Shown here one piece after another: positions 28,075 through 36,500 of a stretch of 42,986 nucleotides of DNA. Made by a program: the position numbers and the translations under genes. The notes below the pieces were generated by a model. The model did not search any database. It was not told the origin of the DNA and was given only the letters and a program-made list of their open reading frames with translations. This DNA comes from Methanosaeta sp. PtaB.Bin018 (GTDB lineage: Archaea > Halobacteriota > Methanosarcinia > Methanotrichales > Methanotrichaceae): positions 1 to 42,986 of the forward strand of contig MVQH01000060.1 of the NCBI GenBank assembly GCA_002067755.1. Direction: 5' to 3'. Position 1 is the first letter of the stretch. The number at the start of each line of letters is the position of its first letter.

Positions 28075-28729
28075 GTCTACCCTTCACTTTGATGGTTTCG
28101 AATTACTGCTACTTATAATAAGTACCTACTTAGAATAATTACTTAATCTTATTTTCATAGCACTTAATCCTTACTAAACCTCAAATTTCGAAACAAAATC
28201 CAAAACTACATTTGAAATTATATTCGAAAAATGAAAGGTTATTTTAGCTAAAAGATGCAATTGGCATGTGGTGCGATGGAGTTCTTGGGAGATCGTACCG
28301 GGAAGAGTAAGTCGAAGATCTGAAGTCGGTGGTGTCAGACACACAGGGATCTGGGCGGGCAGCATGGGCGGCCTCCTCTATCTGCCCGCTTTGTCCTTTG
28401 GTACAGTTGAAAGGGGAAGTCAAGCACAAGATGAACAATAAACCCAGTAAAATTGCCAATAAAAATTTGTAATAAGTTCCGAGACGTTAAATCTAAAAAT
28501 AGTAATAAATTAAAGATAGTAATAAATTAAAATAATTAAAGTTAAAAATAATCGTATTTAACATAATCATATTCAATCAGGCAGGAGGGACCTTGCATTG
28601 ACGCTATATAGCGAAGGTTGTCGATCTTTGCAAGGAGTTCAATGAAAAGCAAATGCACGATTCCAGGCGCTCTCTGGAGAATCATATTCCTCGAGATCTC
28701 AGGAAACAGGTTTCAGGAGGTGAAATGTG
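28075..28729. promoter_or_regulatory. Divergent control region between the regulator operon and gvpA
   Basis: 655 bases with no firm gene. 28080-28260 holds the probable leftward promoter (AT-rich, TTACTTATAATAAG near 28110). 28480-28570 is very AT-rich with imperfect repeats of AGTAATAAATTAAA (28500-28535), good for protein binding or melting. 28591-28634 is the hairpin leader and 28642 a possible leader peptide, both listed separately. GGAGGTGA at 28717-28724 is the gvpA1 ribosome site. Confidence 0.55.
28591..28634 (+). promoter_or_regulatory. Hairpin with palindromic TATATA core in the gvp leader
   Basis: CCTTGCA (28591-28597) pairs with TGCAAGG (28628-28634). Inside lies the perfect 12-bp palindrome CGCTATATAGCG (28602-28613). 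As RNA the outer stem would cover the AAGGAG at 28631-28636 that serves the following small ORF; as DNA the palindrome could be a TATA box with overlapping operator. Confidence 0.45.
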
Positions 28730-28776
28730 ATGGTAACAGCAACACCGGACGCATCAAGCCTTGCCGAGGTCCTTGA
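28642..28776 (+). CDS. Possible 44-aa leader peptide overlapping gvpA1
   Basis: An ATG with a good AAGGAG six bases upstream opens [20 protein letters not shown] and runs 44 residues, out of frame with gvpA, ending 46 bases inside it. Translation would load ribosomes across the gvpA1 start and could control it. No homology is recognised. It may be chance; it is listed because the ribosome site falls in the hairpin above. Confidence 0.3.
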
Positions 28777-28960
28777 TCGGATTCTCGACAAGGGAATTGT
28801 GGTCGATGTCTGGGCGAGGGTCAGCCTCGTTGGCATCGAGATCCTGACGGTCGAGTCAAGGGTCGTCGTGGCATCGGTCGACACCTTCCTCCACTACTCT
28901 GAGGAGATGGCCAAGATCGAGCAGGCTGCCATTGGCGCAACCCCGAAGGTTCCAGCGTAG
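28730..28960 (+). CDS. gvpA: Gas vesicle major structural protein GvpA, copy 1
   Basis: 76 residues. The core [20 protein letters not shown] followed by [20 protein letters not shown] and DTFLHYSEE is diagnostic GvpA, the small hydrophobic subunit that polymerises into the ribs of the gas vesicle wall. The ATG follows GGAGGTGA; a GTG directly before it is rejected for spacing. Protein identical to copy 2. High expression is expected for the main shell protein, consistent with three copies and strong ribosome sites. Confidence 0.97.
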
Positions 28961-28986
28961 GATGATAGACAAAGGAGGGAAAGAGA

Positions 28987-29217
28987 ATGGTAACAGCAAC
29001 ACCGGACGCATCAAGCCTTGCCGAGGTCCTTGATCGGATTCTCGACAAGGGAATCGTGGTCGATGTCTGGGCGAGGGTCAGCCTCGTTGGCATCGAGATC
29101 CTGACGGTCGAGTCAAGGGTCGTCGTGGCATCGGTCGACACCTTCCTCCACTACTCTGAGGAGATGGCCAAGATCGAGCAGGCTGCCATTGGCGCAACCC
29201 CGAAGGTTCCAGCGTAG
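28987..29217 (+). CDS. gvpA: Gas vesicle major structural protein GvpA, copy 2
   Basis: Same 76-residue protein as copy 1; DNA differs at about one synonymous site (GGGAATT versus GGGAATC). Own ribosome site AAGGAGGG, in the 26-base spacer. Second unit of a 257-bp tandem repeat. Confidence 0.97.
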
Positions 29218-29243
29218 GATGATAGACAAAGGAGGGAAAGAGA

Positions 29244-29474
29244 ATGGTAACAGCAACACCGGACGCATCAAGCCTTGCCGAGGTCCTTGATCGGATTCTC
29301 GACAAGGGAATCGTGGTCGATGTCTGGGCGAGGGTCAGCCTCGTTGGCATCGAGATCCTGACGGTCGAGTCGAGAGTCGTCGTGGCATCGGTCGACACCT
29401 TCCTCCACTACTCTGAGGAGATGGCCAAGATCGAGCAGGCTGCCATTGGCGCCACTCCAGGAGTTCCTGCCTGA
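29244..29474 (+). CDS. gvpA: Gas vesicle major structural protein GvpA, copy 3
   Basis: 76 residues; differs from copies 1 and 2 only at the C-terminus (ATPGVPA instead of ATPKVPA), with several silent changes in the last 120 bases. Third unit of the repeat. The extra divergence at its 3' end suggests that gene conversion does not reach the border of the array. Confidence 0.97.
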
Positions 29475-29510: not shown

Positions 29511-30317
29511 ATGGAAGAGACTTTCGACGAGCTGGTGACCAAGCATACCCGGAGAGAGCTGGAAGAGATGGCTCTGAAGTACGGCGTCCAGACCTTCGGC
29601 GGGCCCAAGGCCCAGCTGGCCGAGGCCATCCTGGAAGCAGCAAAGAAGCAGAAAGAGATGTCACAGCCTGCAGCACAGGAGGGCTCCAAAGAAGCCACCC
29701 CTAAACAGACCATAGCTGCCGAGAAGCCAAAACCCAAAGAGGGGCAGCCAAGTGTGGGCAAAAGGGGAGTGATGGCCAAGGCCGCAGCCATCGATAACAA
29801 GTCCAGAGAGCTTCAAAAGGCTGGCAGAAGCATCAGGGAAGAGGGAATCAAGGAGATGACGAAGAGCGTCAAGGAGTTCCAATCGTCAGTGGGCAAGATG
29901 TCTAAAGAGATGCATTCAGAAGCCCGCAAGATGTTGGAGGATGGTCAGCAGAGGCTCAACGCAGGCCTCACTGAGTTCAGACGGGCAACCGACGACCAGA
30001 TCAGAGAGAACAGGGACGCCATAGCCAAGTTCAACTCCGGTGCGAGGGAGATCCGGTCTTCCACGGAGACTATGTCGAAAGAGCTTCAGAGAGCCGGAAA
30101 GAGGATCAGAGAAGAGGGCTACAAGAACCTTCAAAATGGTCTAAGCAGTTTCAGGAACAGCGTGGACGCCCAGATCAAAGAGAACCAGGCAGCCATCTCA
30201 AGGATCGACTCTGCAACCAGGGAGCTGATAGGCAGGGCCAACTCCTTCCAGGAAGAGATCCGCAGGTACCAAGGGCAAGACTTGCAGAACTATATAAAAG
30301 ATTTCTACTATGGGTAA
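29511..30317 (+). CDS. Coiled-coil repeat protein, GvpC-like candidate
   Basis: 268 residues, not a recognised named family. Residues 1-45 resemble a SAP/Rho-N-like helix pair (HTRRELEEMALKYGVQTFGG then KAQLAEAILEAAKK). Residues 45-85 are a Lys/Pro/Glu linker. Residues 90-268 are three imperfect helical repeats of about 50 residues, e.g. LQKAGRSIREEGIKEM and LQRAGKRIREEGYKNL, each followed by DQIRENRDAI or AQIKENQAAI. In size, position next to gvpA and helical repeats it recalls GvpC, which clamps the outside of the vesicle, but sequence similarity is not evident. GGAGGAGCC precedes the ATG. Confidence 0.7.
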   Translation: MEETFDELVTKHTRRELEEMALKYGVQTFGGPKAQLAEAILEAAKKQKEMSQPAAQEGSKEATPKQTIAAEKPKPKEGQPSVGKRGVMAKAAAIDNKSRELQKAGRSIREEGIKEMTKSVKEFQSSVGKMSKEMHSEARKMLEDGQQRLNAGLTEFRRATDDQIRENRDAIAKFNSGAREIRSSTETMSKELQRAGKRIREEGYKNLQNGLSSFRNSVDAQIKENQAAISRIDSATRELIGRANSFQEEIRRYQGQDLQNYIKDFYYG

Positions 30318-30375: not shown

Positions 30376-30403
30376 ATCGCCTAATTTGCAGGAGATGTCA
30401 GGG

Positions 30404-31486
30404 ATGAAGTACATTGTTTCGCACCCGAGGAGGGTGAGGGGCGAATCTGTTCACCAAACGGCCTCTGAGAAGCGAGAGTCTGAGAAGGATCGAAGGGCTG
30501 CAGCTGATTTTTCACAGCCCGATGTTCAGGTTACTATCAGACCCCATGTATCTGCTGCAGAGGGCTGCGGTGAGTTGCTCACTGAGGAGGCTAAGCGAAA
30601 GGCCATAGAGGAGGCTTATCTCAAGCCCGAGGCCAACCACTTCATCAGCACACCCGAGGTGAAAGAGGTCGAGAACAGGATGATGCTCTGGCTTCAGGCA
30701 GGCTACCCTGTACATCTCATCGGGCCGACCGGCTGCGGTAAGACAAGCCTCGCCATCCATGTGGCCAGCGAGCTTGGGCGGCCGATCGTCTGGATAAACG
30801 GAGACGAGTCGATAACCACGACCGACCTGATCGGCGGCTACTCTCAGATCCAGAACGAGAGCGTGCGAGACAAATACATCCACAACGTCTTCAAGAGCAA
30901 GGACGTGATGAAGATCGAGTGGGTGGACAACCCTCTCTCCTTAGCCTGCAAGTACGGCTACACACTGATCTACAACGAGTTCTCCAGAACCAAACCCGCC
31001 TCAAACAACATCTTGCTCTCCGTCTTTGAGGAGAGAATACTCGAGCTTCCCACGAAGTTCGGGGAGGAGAGGTACATCAAGGTCCATCCCGAGTTCAAGG
31101 CAATTCTCACCAGCAATTCCATAGAGTACGCAGGGATTCACAGGCCCCAGGATGCGCTTCTCGACAGGATGGTGGGGATCTACACAGATTACTACAGCTA
31201 CGAGACAGAGGTCCAGATAGTGATGGAACACACGGGCATCACGAAGGCCAAGGCTGAGAGGATAGCGAGCGTTGTGCGCTCGATTAGGGAGAAGCTGCCC
31301 GATGCCCAGAAGCCTGGTACCAGGGCCTGCATCATGATCGCAAAGGGGTTGAAGACCCTGAACGGTCACGGGAAGATAGATTTCGAGCAGCTCTGCATCG
31401 ATGTTATAGCCAACAAGACCAGCTCGCCAAAGGACATGGCGGAAAAGAAGCGGCTGGTCTTGGATTCGATAGCCCAACTGGGATGA
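30404..31486 (+). CDS. gvpN: Gas vesicle AAA+ protein GvpN
   Basis: About 360 residues. Walker A GPTGCGKTSLAIH, the GvpN-typical NGDESITTTDLIGGY, Walker B YTLIYNEFSR and sensor AILTSNSIEYAG are clear. GvpN is a MoxR-type ATPase needed to enlarge vesicles. An N-terminal extension of some 65 charged residues before the AAA+ core is longer than in many homologues. ATG at 30404 follows GGAG; TTG and ATG codons just upstream are possible alternatives. Confidence 0.95.
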   Translation: MKYIVSHPRRVRGESVHQTASEKRESEKDRRAAADFSQPDVQVTIRPHVSAAEGCGELLTEEAKRKAIEEAYLKPEANHFISTPEVKEVENRMMLWLQAGYPVHLIGPTGCGKTSLAIHVASELGRPIVWINGDESITTTDLIGGYSQIQNESVRDKYIHNVFKSKDVMKIEWVDNPLSLACKYGYTLIYNEFSRTKPASNNILLSVFEERILELPTKFGEERYIKVHPEFKAILTSNSIEYAGIHRPQDALLDRMVGIYTDYYSYETEVQIVMEHTGITKAKAERIASVVRSIREKLPDAQKPGTRACIMIAKGLKTLNGHGKIDFEQLCIDVIANKTSSPKDMAEKKRLVLDSIAQLG

Positions 31487-31896: not shown

Positions 31897-32184
31897 ATGG
31901 CTGATACGACAGATAAACCCGGAATTCAGAGGATCTACGAGAAGGCTAGCATGACCGCTGAGGCCCTGCTGAAGAAGAAGCTCGATGCCATAGTATCTCT
32001 CAACAGGGAACCAGATGGGTGGCTCGCTGAGGTGGAGCTGGTGGAGCGAAAGTCCATTCCCGATACGCAGGACATTCTAGGAAGGTACGAGATGATGTTC
32101 GATCTCGATGGCGAGCTTCTGAGCTACAAGAGGATCATGCTGCGCCGCAGGTCGGACATGGAGACTGTAGCCGAAGAGGTGTAG
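31897..32184 (+). CDS. gvpO: Gas vesicle protein GvpO
   Basis: 95 residues. The GvpO core is plain: DGWLAEVELVERKSIPDTQD then LGRYEMMFDLDGELLSYKRI. GvpO is a soluble accessory protein found in archaeal and actinobacterial clusters and needed for vesicle formation in haloarchaea. AGGTGA precedes the start. It ends four bases before gvpF. Confidence 0.9.
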   Translation: MADTTDKPGIQRIYEKASMTAEALLKKKLDAIVSLNREPDGWLAEVELVERKSIPDTQDILGRYEMMFDLDGELLSYKRIMLRRRSDMETVAEEV

Positions 32185-32188
32185 CCTC

Positions 32189-32875
32189 TTGATAAGGCGG
32201 ATCGTGCAGAGAGATAGGCGGCCCCAGGAGGGCAAGGGGAAGTACGTCTACTGTGTCATCCGCCGCCCTTCGGAGCAGGAGAGCTTCGGAGATCTGGGGT
32301 TTGAGGGGGAGAAGGTTTACACATTGGACTACAGAGACCTGTCTCCAGTCGTCAGCGATGCAGTCGTTAGGGAGTACTCAGTCGGAGAGGATGAGGTCGA
32401 GGTCCACAGAAAGGTAGTAGAGAGGGTCATGCAGGAGCACAGCGTCCTGCCCGTGGCCTATGGCATGGTCTTCAAGAGCCGCAAGCTCCTCCAGATCGCC
32501 ATGGGGGCAGGCTACCAGGCGATGCAAGAAGCCTTTGGCGTCGTAGATGGTCGAGTCGAGCTGGGTATCAAGGTCTTTCTGCCGAGAGAGATCGAGGCAT
32601 GGGATGAGAAGAGAAGGGCAGAGTGCAGGTCGGACTTCATCGAGGGCCTCGATGCCTCAGCGTCAGACAGAAAAGACCTCAAGCTCTTCAGCGATCGCCT
32701 TGTGTTCAACGCGGCCTTTCTTGTAGAGAGGGCGAGGATCGAGGAATTCTCAGGTAAAGTGAGCGGCCTTGCATCCAAGTACGAAGATGCAAAGGTGCAG
32801 TACTCGGGGCCGTGGCCTGCCTACAACTTTGTGGACATCCACATCCTGGGAAAGAAGCGCAAGGGGTTCAGATAG
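32189..32875 (+). CDS. gvpF: Gas vesicle protein GvpF/GvpL family (first copy)
   Basis: 228 residues. Family marks: KYVYCVIRRP near the start, VHRKVVERVMQEHSVLPVAYG with MVF, and the C-terminal GPWPAYNFVDI. These proteins bind GvpA and are thought to help nucleate the vesicle. Start is TTG with GAAGAGGTG eight bases upstream. It overlaps nothing but touches gvpG (stop and start adjoin), as in haloarchaeal gvpFG. Confidence 0.93.
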   Translation: MIRRIVQRDRRPQEGKGKYVYCVIRRPSEQESFGDLGFEGEKVYTLDYRDLSPVVSDAVVREYSVGEDEVEVHRKVVERVMQEHSVLPVAYGMVFKSRKLLQIAMGAGYQAMQEAFGVVDGRVELGIKVFLPREIEAWDEKRRAECRSDFIEGLDASASDRKDLKLFSDRLVFNAAFLVERARIEEFSGKVSGLASKYEDAKVQYSGPWPAYNFVDIHILGKKRKGFR

Positions 32876-33163
32876 ATGTTCTTCCTGGACGATCTTCTCA
32901 TCAGATCTTTGGGCATCTCCCTGCCTGGCCTTGATCTGATCTGGACGCTGGAGCAGATTCAGAGATTCGCCCACAAGGAGCTTTACAATCCCGAGAATAT
33001 CAAGAACCAGATAAAAGAGACGCGTCTGCTCTATGAGTTCGGGGAGCTGACAAGGGAAGAGTACGAGCGTAGAAGCTCAAAGCTGATGCACAAGCTGAGG
33101 ATGGCCGAAAAGGCAGGGGAGATGAACCTCGGGACCAGGATGGACATTCTCGGAGGGAGATGA
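32876..33163 (+). CDS. gvpG: Gas vesicle protein GvpG
   Basis: 95 residues. The N-terminus FFLDDLL and PGLDLIWTLEQIQRFAHKEL, plus ETRLLYEFGELTREEYERR, match the GvpG family, a small helical accessory protein. Immediately after gvpF, and its stop overlaps the next start (ATGA). Confidence 0.9.
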   Translation: MFFLDDLLIRSLGISLPGLDLIWTLEQIQRFAHKELYNPENIKNQIKETRLLYEFGELTREEYERRSSKLMHKLRMAEKAGEMNLGTRMDILGGR

Positions 33164-33429
33164 GAGAGAAGGGGATTGCCCTCAAGGGGGACGGGCTTGT
33201 CCAGTGGATGGGGAGGGCTCTGCAGATCTTGCAGGAGATGGATGAGACGAATGAGGAAGAACGAGAGCTCTCCGGAACCCTGGAGGGTCCTCTCTTCTCC
33301 AGAGCAGTTTACGATCTTGTGATCAAGATAGGATTGAGGAACGGATTCAAGCGAGAGGCACGAAGAAGAAGGATTGCCGTCTCGGGGGTTAAGAATGGCT
33401 CGACTGGTGCAGAAGCTCATCGAGAATAG
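33160..33429 (+). CDS. Unknown small gas-vesicle-cluster protein
   Basis: 89 residues, not recognised. N-terminal helix GLVQWMGRALQILQEMDETN, then EGPLFSRAVYDLVIKIGLRN and a basic, probably unstructured end KREARRRRIAVSG. ATGA overlap with gvpG indicates coupled translation. Its 3' end overlaps the next gene by 35 bases. The mid-part is faintly like the helical segment SxxxDLxLRxGL of bacterial GvpJ/S-type and phage adaptor proteins, too weak to name. Confidence 0.65.
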   Translation: MREKGIALKGDGLVQWMGRALQILQEMDETNEEERELSGTLEGPLFSRAVYDLVIKIGLRNGFKREARRRRIAVSGVKNGSTGAEAHRE

Positions 33430-33691
33430 GAGGAGGCAGCATGCCGTTGTGACAGCTCACAAGAGAAAGATCAGGGATGAAGTCAACCCTCAGCTGAGGG
33501 CGGCCAAAAGGGCATGGAGCGATTCATCAAAGGAGAAGAACCTCAACATGAAGTGCAACTGGCACTCTCAGAGGACGCGGGTGCAGAGGCTCCAGAGAGA
33601 GCAGAAGCGCCTTCACATGATGAAGATTCTGGCTCACAAGAGAAGGCTGAAGGCCAAGATAGCAGGCCGAGATAGCGGCAGGCGGGATTGA
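33395..33691 (+). CDS. Very basic small protein, GvpI-like candidate
   Basis: About 98 residues with Arg/Lys close to a third of the sequence: NRRRQHAVVTAHKRKIRDE, KLHMM-like segments, LQREQKRLHMMKILAHKRRL. Predicted one long helix. Haloarchaeal GvpI is likewise small and strongly basic, and sits in the same kind of cluster, but alignment is not evident. The ATG at 33395 gives a start inside the previous gene; an upstream ATG at 33374 is possible. It ends four bases before the GvpJ-type gene. Confidence 0.6.
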   Translation: MARLVQKLIENRRRQHAVVTAHKRKIRDEVNPQLRAAKRAWSDSSKEKNLNMKCNWHSQRTRVQRLQREQKRLHMMKILAHKRRLKAKIAGRDSGRRD

Positions 33692-33695
33692 GAGA

Positions 33696-34064
33696 ATGAC
33701 GGAGTTTGGGCCGAGAAGAACCAGCAACCTTGCTGATGTGATTGAGAGGATCCTGGACAAGGGGCTCGTCATCAACGCGGACATAGCAGTCTCAGTGGCG
33801 GGAACTGAGCTTCTCGGAATAAAGATCAGGGCGACGTTGGCATCCTTCGAGACTGCGGCGAGATATGGCCTTGAGCTTCCCTCAGGCACGAACATGAATG
33901 CACCGGGCTGGAAGGATCTGGAAAGGCCCAAGGCGTACTGCCCTGAGTGTGGAAACAGAAGAGACGAGGAGCTTTTGATCAAGGATGGCTGTCCCGTCTG
34001 TGGCTGGCAGAGCATGGAGCGCAGGCTGCCGATGATAGAGCCTAACTCCCACGGCTATGAATGA
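33696..34064 (+). CDS. gvpJ: GvpJ-type protein with C-terminal zinc ribbon
   Basis: 122 residues. Residues 8-65 are a GvpA-fold segment of the GvpJ/GvpM kind: SNLADVIERILDKGLVINAD then IAVSVAGTELLGIKIRATLA. After a short linker comes YCPECGNRR...DGCPVCGW, a CxxC-CxxC zinc ribbon (residues about 88-110). GvpJ forms a minor shell or tip component; the ribbon is not part of the normal protein and may dock a cytosolic partner or nucleic acid. Confidence 0.85.
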   Translation: MTEFGPRRTSNLADVIERILDKGLVINADIAVSVAGTELLGIKIRATLASFETAARYGLELPSGTNMNAPGWKDLERPKAYCPECGNRRDEELLIKDGCPVCGWQSMERRLPMIEPNSHGYE

Positions 34065-34123
34065 TCCCATGGGGCGAATCTCATGAAATAAGTCTCGTGA
34101 GTCAAGATCTTTTGGAGGAGACG

Positions 34124-34780
34124 ATGGCGAAGGAACCAGAGGAGAAAGACGAGGGCAAGAATGCAGGGGAAGATGGCATGGCGCCTGAGAAAGGGGACAA
34201 GGGGGAAGAGAGCGACAAGGAGGAGAGCAAGAGATTAGAAGAGAGGATAGCCCTCCTGGAGAAGAAGATCGATGAGCTGGAAAAGGAATCCAGGAGGCCA
34301 GCCGAGGGCGTCTCGGGGGAGAGAATCGTGGAGAGCGTGGTAGGGCAGTTCATTCCAGGTCTCGGAGGCATCATAAAGGCCCTCGAAGGATCTTCCCCCG
34401 AGTTCAGACAGAGGATAGCCGAGACCGACGCTGAGATACGCCACAGGATTGATGTTGGGTGGTCCAGCAAGCCTGTGATAGACTACCAAGTCTCCACCAG
34501 GCCTATCAGGCGCGGCCAGCCCCGCACTGAGAGCGTCCGGCTGCCACGGACTGGGCCTACGCGAGATCCGATTGTGGATGTGCTGGAGGGAAAGGATGGG
34601 ATAACGGTCATCGCAGAGCTTCCAGGCGTCTCTGAGGAGGAGCTGAGGCTCTTCCTAGATCGAGATGCTCTGGAGATCTCAGCAGGCCAGTTCAGCAAGA
34701 AGGTAACACTGCCCCGTACAGCAAAATCCATCGTCGAGCGTAGCTTCAAGAACGGCATACTCCAGATCAGACTGAAGTAG
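34124..34780 (+). CDS. gvpH: Gas vesicle protein GvpH (Hsp20-like domain)
   Basis: About 218 residues. N-terminal 45 are acidic and probably disordered; a coiled coil follows (RLEERIALLEKKIDELEKES); the middle (FIPGLGGIIKALEGSSPEFR) and the C-terminal alpha-crystallin-like domain (VIAELPGVSEEELRLF, ERSFKNGILQIRLK) match GvpH, an Hsp20-related chaperone of the gas vesicle. TTTTGGAGGAGACG precedes the ATG at 34124, which is why the longer reading from 34061 is rejected. Confidence 0.85.
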   Translation: MAKEPEEKDEGKNAGEDGMAPEKGDKGEESDKEESKRLEERIALLEKKIDELEKESRRPAEGVSGERIVESVVGQFIPGLGGIIKALEGSSPEFRQRIAETDAEIRHRIDVGWSSKPVIDYQVSTRPIRRGQPRTESVRLPRTGPTRDPIVDVLEGKDGITVIAELPGVSEEELRLFLDRDALEISAGQFSKKVTLPRTAKSIVERSFKNGILQIRLK

Positions 34781-34803: not shown

Positions 34804-35118
34804 ATGACCATCAACCTGGATGAAGAGAACCTGAAGGATGGGCTGCTGGGCCTCGTCGTCGCCCTGGTGGAGATCGTGCAGGAGCTTTTGGAGCGCCAGG
34901 CCCTGAGGAGGATGGAGAGCGGAAGCCTCAGCGATGCAGAGGTGGAGCGCCTGGGCGAGTCACTCTCTGAGCTGCAGGAAGCCCTTGAGAAAATCAAGAT
35001 CGACAACGGCATCGAGGACTCCGTGGAGAACCTCAGGGACAGTCTCGACCAGGTTGCTGAGGATCTGGTGGACAAGTTTCTGGACCCAGAGGAATGGGTA
35101 AAGGAGGCTGGACCATGA
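34804..35118 (+). CDS. gvpK: Gas vesicle protein GvpK
   Basis: 104 residues. GvpK marks: LKDGLLGLVVALVEIVQELL, ALRRMESGSLSDAEVERLG and the long helical C-terminus ending LDPEEWVKEAG. GvpK is a minor accessory protein. Its stop overlaps the gvpL start (ATGA). Confidence 0.93.
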   Translation: MTINLDEENLKDGLLGLVVALVEIVQELLERQALRRMESGSLSDAEVERLGESLSELQEALEKIKIDNGIEDSVENLRDSLDQVAEDLVDKFLDPEEWVKEAGP

Positions 35119-35912
35119 CCGAAGGCCCCAGGGTCGCAAAGGCCAGGTACCTATACGCCATCGCCTCCACGAGAGAGAAGCAGAGCATAGGAAATATCGG
35201 GATCGATGAGAGCGCTGTCTACACCATACCTTTCAAAAGTATTTCTGCAGTGGTACACTCGTGCGAGCCTAGGCCATACGAGACGAGGGACAGAGCATTG
35301 GCAGAGGGCTGGATCCTGGAGCACAGCTACGTGATAGACCAGGCAATGAAGCTCTTCGGGACAGTCCTTCCCTTCTCCTTTGACGTAATAGTGAGGGGAG
35401 ACGATTCTACGATCGAGGGTTGGCTATGCAGGAACTATGACCGCCTCGCAAGCGAGCTGCAGCGAGTCGAGGGCAGGGCAGAGTACTCAGTTGAGATCTA
35501 CTACGACTACGATCAGCTCGCTGAGGAGGCATTGCGGGAAAACCAGGAGCTGAGAGAGCTTGCAAGCAGGATCGAGAAAGAGCCGAAGGGCAGGGCTTAC
35601 ATGCTGAAGAGGACTCTGGATCAGAAGCTGAAGGAGATCGTCGCTTCCGAGGCGCGCAGGCAGGTTGATCGGGCCATCTCACAGATCAAGTCGCTAGCAG
35701 ACGAGGCGAAGGTCGAGACCAAACGATCGCAGCCCCCTGAGAAATACAGAGACAAGAGGCTTATTGGATCGTATTCCTGTCTTGTCCACACTGATAGTGT
35801 GAACAAGCTAGGCGATGTTCTGGAGGAGATTAATGCATTGAGCGGCTTCGCTGTCAGGTTCACCGGCCCGTGGGCTCCCTTCAGCTTCGTGAAGCTCGGT
35901 GATGCGGCATGA
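35115..35912 (+). CDS. gvpL: Gas vesicle protein GvpL/GvpF family (second copy)
   Basis: 265 residues from the ATG in the gvpK stop. N-terminus RYLYAIASTREKQSIGNIG, middle ILEHSYVIDQAMKLFGTVLP and C-terminus GFAVRFTGPWAPFSFVKLGD match the GvpF/L family. It has a central extra helical segment compared with gvpF (KRTLDQKLKEIVASEARRQV). It likely scaffolds other gas vesicle proteins. Confidence 0.93.
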   Translation: MTEGPRVAKARYLYAIASTREKQSIGNIGIDESAVYTIPFKSISAVVHSCEPRPYETRDRALAEGWILEHSYVIDQAMKLFGTVLPFSFDVIVRGDDSTIEGWLCRNYDRLASELQRVEGRAEYSVEIYYDYDQLAEEALRENQELRELASRIEKEPKGRAYMLKRTLDQKLKEIVASEARRQVDRAISQIKSLADEAKVETKRSQPPEKYRDKRLIGSYSCLVHTDSVNKLGDVLEEINALSGFAVRFTGPWAPFSFVKLGDAA

Positions 35913-35942: not shown

Positions 35943-36500
35943 GTGAAGCCTGAGAGGGAGAGCTGTCTTGTCGAGGTCCTGGACAGGCTTCTCGAAAAGG
36001 GCGCAGTCCTCAGCGCCGACCTGATCATATCAGTGGCAGGCATTCCCCTGATCGGCCTGAACCTGAGGGCGGCGCTGGCAAGCATGGAAACGATGCTGAA
36101 ATACGGAATTATGGAGGACTGGGACAGGAGCAGCAGGGAGAGCGCCCAGAGGGAGGAGCTTCCCCTTGCAGAGGATGAGGAGGTCCTCTTCAGGGCCTTC
36201 GGATACCTGCAGAGCCAAGGGGCTTTGAGCTCCTGGCTTCCCGGAGTCTGGCACCTAACAAGCAAGAGACTCATCCTGTGGAGGAGGTCGCCGTGTGAGG
36301 TAGTCTTCGAGGTGCCCCTACGAGAGATCTGCCTCCTGGAGGCGGATGAGTCTGAAGGGTGCTCAGAGCTGGACCTGATTTACTCCGGCGGCTCGGCCCG
36401 GATCCGCCTCACCGAGACGGAGGAGCTGAGGGTGGCTCTTGATCGCGTCTTGAGGCTCAGAGCAGAGAATTATAATGATCTTATGACCACTGATGCTTAA
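35943..36500 (+). CDS. GvpJ/GvpM-type protein fused to a PH/GRAM-like domain
   Basis: 185 residues; GTG start. Residues 8-60 are a GvpA-fold segment of the GvpJ/M kind: CLVEVLDRLLEKGAVLSADL then IISVAGIPLIGLNLRAALA. A charged linker (70-85) is followed by about 85 residues resembling a bacterial PH/GRAM domain: EEVLFRAFGYLQ, GVWHLTSKRLILWRR, FEVPLREICLLEA, RLTETEELRVAL. Such domains bind lipids or proteins. It is the last gene of the cluster, converging with the next minus-strand gene. Confidence 0.75.
   Translation: MKPERESCLVEVLDRLLEKGAVLSADLIISVAGIPLIGLNLRAALASMETMLKYGIMEDWDRSSRESAQREELPLAEDEEVLFRAFGYLQSQGALSSWLPGVWHLTSKRLILWRRSPCEVVFEVPLREICLLEADESEGCSELDLIYSGGSARIRLTETEELRVALDRVLRLRAENYNDLMTTDA

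Follow-up and report, generated by a model that had tools for sequence, protein, structure and literature searches.

The minor gas-vesicle protein GvpJ carries the fold of the major shell protein GvpA, and its role is stated as unknown in the available parts of two reports (PMC10903477, PMC8716928). GvpJ, GvpM and GvpS were identified in purified bicones and were absent from the cylinder wall, according to the accessible text of one of them (PMC10903477). In the available sections of the other, Halobacterium GvpJ is essential and cysteine-free, the loss of its five C-terminal residues leaves the cells without vesicles, and the fragment J47-114 binds GvpG, GvpH and GvpL (PMC8716928). As far as the accessible portions go, conservation of GvpJ is limited to its N-terminal part, the C terminus being cluster-specific (PMC8716928, PMC9501494), and a zinc finger is placed on Halobacterium GvpC (PMC9501494). 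The GvpJ of Anabaena flos-aquae, in the available part of its description, is likewise a GvpA homologue with a C-terminal addition of its own, but this addition consists of six 21-residue repeats and no ribbon. We found no publication describing a cysteine ribbon on GvpJ in the literature searched, which comprised papers outside subscription journals, and the conserved ribbon reported here is apparently undescribed so far.

The window, the whole stretch of 42,986 nucleotides analysed from Methanosaeta sp. PtaB.Bin018, contains a gas-vesicle cluster with profile matches to GvpA, GvpG, GvpK, GvpL and GvpM, and the ORF at 33696-34064 is gvpJ (Table 1). The shell fold matches PF00741 with an E-value of 6e-16 (58.7 bits against a cut-off of 25), and in an NCBIfam comparison the GvpJ model scored best at 105.3 bits, followed by GvpA and GvpM models at 50.7, 47.2 and 45.9 bits. 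The assignment as a GvpJ-type shell protein in the preliminary description thus stands. The score lies below the curated cut-off of 125 of the GvpJ model NF046090, a haloarchaeal "exception" model whose cut-off was reached by no match in four bacterial phyla either; because the model was built for haloarchaea, the ORF falls outside this narrow model and is still a GvpJ in the broad sense. The gene is single-copy in its own genome (2.23 Mb in 104 contigs), where four further matches are gvpA and gvpM paralogues, and among the best 80 of 258 relatives its closest named ones belong to Methanothrix and Methanotrichaceae. The opposite strand was rejected as the coding strand because of stops in minus-strand frame 1, and the minus-strand ORFs overlapping gvpJ were treated as mechanical. 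A search of phages with this GvpJ gave no match.

Table 1. Features of the gas-vesicle cluster in the window and of related genes in the fetched loci (prefix L)
Feature	Position	Strand	Remarks
gvpA, three copies	28727..29474	+	Tandem, near-identical, about 257 bases apart; major shell; without ribbon
ORF behind gvpA	29511-30317		268 aa
AAA ATPase at the gvpN place	30386..31486	+	AAA_5; name gvpN from context
gvpO	31897..32184	+	PF05800
gvpF/L-type	32189..32875	+	PF06386
gvpG	32876..33163	+	PF05120
Small ORF	33160-33429		
Small ORF	33374-33691		
gvpJ	33696..34064	+	122 aa; ATG to TGA; minor GvpA-fold shell protein with C-terminal ribbon
GvpA-type shell fold of GvpJ	33726..33842	+	Residues 11-49; PF00741
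Four-Cys ribbon of GvpJ	33939..34001	+	C82-C102, CPECG-x12-CPVC then GW; part of gvpJ
gvpH-like, Hsp20 domain	34061..34780	+	Start is the mechanical ORF start
gvpK	34804..35118	+	PF05121
gvpL	35094..35912	+	NF045778 over cut-off
GvpM-type paralogue	35943..36500	+	185 aa; no Cys ribbon; GvpM model best, 95 bits
GvpM-type with one or two PH/GRAM-like domains	L093:8448-9542, L145:3387-4469, L149:427-1515, L063:7745-8482; window 35943-36500		
GvpH-like Hsp20 protein with N-terminal ribbon	L044:2665-3147, L055:5275-5757, L060:6311-6802		J-ribbon HMM
Double-ribbon genes	L068:6342-6647, L085:2780-3214, L076:6660-7076, L112:4181-4552, L070:7611-8039, others		

The order of the cluster is three gvpA genes, the AAA ATPase, gvpO, gvpF/L, gvpG, two small ORFs, gvpJ, the gvpH-like gene, gvpK, gvpL and the gvpM-type gene. 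Neither small ORF between gvpG and gvpJ matched a family over its cut-off. The true start of the gvpH-like gene may be an ATG near 34124, behind GGAGGA. The ORF behind the gvpA copies gave weak helical-repeat matches only; it may encode a GvpC-like protein, a guess made from its position. In the accessible part of an expression table, Methanothrix thermoacetophila Mthe_0070, annotated gvpA, lies between gvpG and gvpM, which is the place of gvpJ (PMC10470525). The locus resembles that of haloarchaeal GvpJ (Halobacterium salinarum; NF046090) in the shell fold, at 105 bits, and in its place among the G, H, K, L and M genes, but it differs at the C terminus: the haloarchaeal protein has an acidic tail, and none of the 33 that were read carries a ribbon.

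GvpJ of the window has its cysteines at positions 82, 85, 99 and 102 (CPECG-x12-CPVCGW). These form the two CxxC knuckles that had been noted as about 17 residues apart, which holds for the distance from the first to the third cysteine; 13 residues lie between the knuckles. When the tail of the protein was shuffled with its four cysteines kept, the C..C-C..C arrangement appeared in 286 of 200,000 shuffles, and conservation is the stronger argument for the ribbon. The two knuckles are 13 residues apart in 100 of 102 ribbon-bearing GvpJ sequences and 14 apart in the other 2. Both TGC and TGT are used at each of the four cysteines in these 102 (59 to 43 for the first cysteine), so the cysteines were retained while the DNA changed, and 101 of 106 GvpJ cores have no cysteine at all. 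An alignment of 67 ribbon-bearing sequences (A1) shows no variation at W72, P83, L94, G103 and W104; this set was picked by its cysteine pattern, so its invariant cysteines prove nothing, and the other residues are unselected. W72 is the invariant tryptophan of a conserved linker between shell fold and ribbon, and the residues between the knuckles vary except for L94. Beyond the ribbon, many GvpJ proteins have lysine-rich tails; that of the window does not.

Conservation in orthologues, whose absence the preliminary description had named as the refuting observation, was found to be extensive. Sequences were drawn with NF046090 (73 positions), whose matches to ribbon-bearing GvpJ stop at about position 62-66, ahead of the ribbon. 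Across 392 genomes of the phylum of the window, the J-type matches form two sets. The first consists of 35 haloarchaeal proteins over the cut-off, of which 33 were read (the others being that of genome G385 and a second one in G100); none of the 33 has the ribbon, and their tails are acidic, with a median of 31% Asp+Glu. The second consists of 22 non-haloarchaeal proteins at 86-106 bits, 21 of them with the ribbon. Four bacterial phyla (247, 246, 251 and 249 genomes) yielded 5, 4, 4 and 4 J-type matches, taken as those with at least 83 bits, everything else reaching at most 60; the ribbon is present in 4, 4, 3 and 4 of them, or in 10 of 12 when the preselected ribbon carriers G422-G425 and G431 are left out. 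Over all fetched loci, the four cysteines occur in 102 of 106 distinct non-haloarchaeal J-type sequences, a set enriched in ribbons since it includes loci from a peptide-pattern search that contained the ribbon (best 80 of 258 relatives). Among the four exceptions, L158 (also the one ribbon-less member of the second archaeal set) is frameshifted, its second knuckle being preserved in the following frame; L249 has an in-frame nonsense codon within the second knuckle, L196 is truncated, and in the protein of L055 all four cysteines are changed together and much of the rest is recognisable. No full-length GvpJ has a partial site, which fits a single metal site. Judged from these comparisons, the ribbon is the usual C terminus of one GvpJ lineage in archaea and bacteria, with haloarchaeal GvpJ as the exception. 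The earlier statement that GvpJ normally ends soon after the fold had to be given up: the haloarchaeal tail is long and essential, the Anabaena protein has its repeats, and in the present lineage the ribbon is the rule.

By their record titles, the loci of the best 80 of 258 relatives belong to Methanothrix, Methanosarcina, Methanoperedens, Bathyarchaeota, Desulfobacteraceae, Chloroflexi, Actinomadura, Planctomycetota, Nitrospinae and further groups; several carriers are metagenome-assembled genomes that are possibly mis-binned (e.g. L046, L047), and isolates or complete chromosomes among them are Actinomadura mexicana, Desulfoluna, a Synergistota strain and Ca. Formimonas. A GvpA-fold match was also present in 46 plasmid records, from which five GvpJ were read: the ribbon is present in those of Natronococcus occultus, Natrinema zhouii and a Streptomyces, and missing from those of Haladaptatus and Halalkalicoccus. 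A few haloarchaeal plasmids therefore do carry a ribbon-bearing GvpJ. In a quick tree of 65 columns the sampled haloarchaeal GvpJ form one group (SH-aLRT 99), and the AU test did not reject a single clade of ribbon-bearing GvpJ (p 0.67); tree and test would be compatible with a gain of the ribbon or with its loss in haloarchaea, and both histories stay in play. Since 33 haloarchaeal GvpJ lack the ribbon, vesicles as such do not depend on it. One ribbon-less haloarchaeal GvpJ (L117) has a different Cys/His-rich stretch, CKALTASGERCSRPAKDDGFCHQH, within its acidic tail.

Compact J-M-K-L modules without gvpA nearby retain the ribbon on GvpJ, in three plasmids (L304, L305, L306) and in Actinomadura (L082, L100). 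That such "A-less" modules form a separate machine was considered, and the idea is weakened by gvpA being present elsewhere in three of four Actinomadura genomes; one 7.1-Mb Actinomadura draft has GvpJ and GvpM only, and for the three plasmid modules gvpA was looked for in the plasmid record alone. TetR regulators adjoin the J-M-K-L modules in haloarchaeal and Streptomyces plasmids.

Similar ribbons are found on other gas-vesicle proteins. The motif is absent from all 76 distinct sequences of the major shell protein GvpA, and it stands at the end of 23 of 96 distinct non-haloarchaeal M-type sequences. It also occurs in 3 of 92 other GvpA-fold proteins, all three of a Bathyarchaeal type. In Bathyarchaeota (L069, L102, L178), a third GvpA-fold type of about 109 residues, with a ribbon, adjoins the ribbon-bearing GvpJ. 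GvpM shares the GvpA-type fold with GvpJ and, in these 23 sequences, a very similar terminal ribbon; it differs in that one or two PH/GRAM-like domains separate the fold from the ribbon, and the GvpM of the window is ribbon-less. The C-terminal extension of the latter resembles the PH/GRAM-like part of other GvpM in a by-eye comparison with L145 and L176. In the L093 GvpM, Vps36/GRAM PH-like models score over their cut-offs, and its AlphaFold2 model has two PH-like domains followed by a ribbon, with BBS5 as the best PDB match (E 3.6e-9).

A scan of 27,900 ORFs from the window and the loci with an HMM built on the J ribbon detected the N-terminal ribbon of three GvpH-like Hsp20 proteins (Table 1); in L055, the GvpH-like protein has a ribbon and the neighbouring GvpJ is the one that lacks the four cysteines. 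It also detected a stand-alone gene of 100-155 codons with two ribbons that adjoins gvpJ; an ORF with two matches of at least 15 bits occurs in 14 of 80 loci (best 80 of 258 relatives). The remaining cysteine-rich ORFs of the loci score at most 12.6. Three double-ribbon proteins that were scanned fell into no named family, one of them giving a marginal DUF3797 match (25.4 against 25.1), and the double-ribbon gene is a candidate for an unrecognised gvp gene. Within the window the HMM finds the ribbon on GvpJ alone, and the search of its own genome gave no clear double-ribbon gene, the best match being the GvpJ ribbon (5e-4), followed by two weak matches at 0.02 and 0.07.

An AlphaFold2 model of GvpJ on alignment A1 has an overall mean pLDDT of 60.9 with a poor shell part, which may be expected when one subunit of a polymer is modelled alone. 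The model is best in the ribbon, with mean pLDDT values of 70, 86, 86 and 79 for residues 71-80, 81-90, 91-100 and 101-110; the ribbon consists of strands 79-81 and 88-90 and helix 91-97. The predicted ribbon of the L093 GvpM has the same order of elements (323-325, 332-334, 335-340). Foldseek with the GvpJ ribbon returned nothing significant (best E 0.58); among its weak, non-significant matches are zinc elements of the ribosomal, AccD and NZF types, and VIA gave a single row with Z 2.4 and an rmsd of 4.3 over 37 residues. A sequence search of the PDB gave GvpA-type shells and weak cysteine-rich matches only, with no solved relative of the ribbon. Membership in an ordinary zinc-ribbon family was rejected, the best Pfam score being 16.0 against 24.5 bits and that of HVO_0416 21.9 against 80. 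The segment shares two CxxC(G) knuckles with the CPxCG zinc ribbons (Cys_rich_CPCC, the Zn_ribbon families, the HVO_0416 zinc finger), but it lies below every family cut-off and is joined to a gas-vesicle shell fold. Of the profile comparison proposed earlier, the GvpJ side held, as the best model under its cut-off, and the zinc-ribbon side did not, no profile exceeding its threshold. The segment would therefore be called ribbon-like by its motif and is not filed in a named zinc-ribbon family.

How might this ribbon act? The reading that we favour, by a modest balance of probability, is that gvpJ encodes a shell protein whose metal-stabilised ribbon docks accessory proteins at the nucleating tip. 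Judged from the motif, the four cysteines would coordinate a single structural metal, most likely zinc; iron, bound through rubredoxin-like knuckles, is conceivable, although the spacing of 13 is far below that of rubredoxin. During nucleation GvpJ would be built into the conical tip of the shell, and its ribbon would project from the outer face as a docking knob gathering accessory proteins, with GvpL, GvpK, GvpM, GvpG and GvpH as candidates. In haloarchaea, GvpJ would do the same job through its long acidic tail. Such a knob is suggested by the location in bicones, the partners bound by the Halobacterium tail, the occurrence of ribbons on minor and accessory proteins only, and the persistence of the GvpJ ribbon in compact J-M-K-L modules. 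The recruitment of a factor, raised in the preliminary description, is accordingly plausible by analogy. The weak step of this analogy is that the Halobacterium tail is ribbon-less, so that its partners need not be those of the ribbon, and the lysine-rich tails beyond the ribbon in many GvpJ would also fit other partners.

An extended form of the docking proposal, which we put forward as an unlikely possibility, is that shared metal ribbons on GvpJ, GvpM, sometimes GvpH and the stand-alone double-ribbon protein keep the nucleation complex assembled, either by binding each other or by way of a common partner. The PH/GRAM-like domains of GvpM would then tie the nucleus to a membrane or another cell surface, and Methanothrix, with the ribbon on GvpJ alone, would have a reduced form.

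The ribbon could also be no more than a folded cap at the C terminus, with no specific partner, by which GvpJ stays soluble or is marked as the first subunit. Haloarchaeal GvpJ functions with an unrelated acidic tail and the residues between the knuckles are variable apart from L94, as a cap would allow; however, the five invariant residues outside the cysteines and the recurrence of ribbons on several accessory proteins encoded in these clusters make this reading improbable. Next, the ribbon could bind a component outside the Gvp set (nucleic acid, ribosome, membrane) and so place the nucleus in the cell. The ribosomal, AccD and NZF-type ribbons among the non-significant structural matches, the lysine-rich tails of many GvpJ and the PH/GRAM-like domains on GvpM of the same clusters point in this direction, but GvpJ of the window has no such tail, and we give the proposal a small chance. 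Slightly lower still do we place a metal or redox switch, by which the zinc level or the oxidation state would control nucleation. CPxC knuckles can be redox active and many ribbon carriers are anaerobic; on the other hand, tetra-cysteine ribbons usually bind zinc tightly, and Actinomadura and haloarchaeal records contain the ribbon as well. No regulatory feature was found alongside it, and the earlier suggestion that zinc might control nucleation found no backing here. Finally, an artefactual ORF or a fusion confined to a single genome is ruled out for practical purposes by the conservation of the ribbon in orthologues, with its fixed spacing across many phyla, isolates and complete chromosomes included, and its mixed cysteine codons.

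For the study of gas-vesicle nucleation, the ribbon provides a defined site at which an essential protein can be mutated. It makes a search for partners testable and serves as a marker by which two kinds of GvpJ can be told apart. For the engineering of gas vesicles from anaerobes, the supply of zinc or tags at the C terminus of GvpJ may matter.
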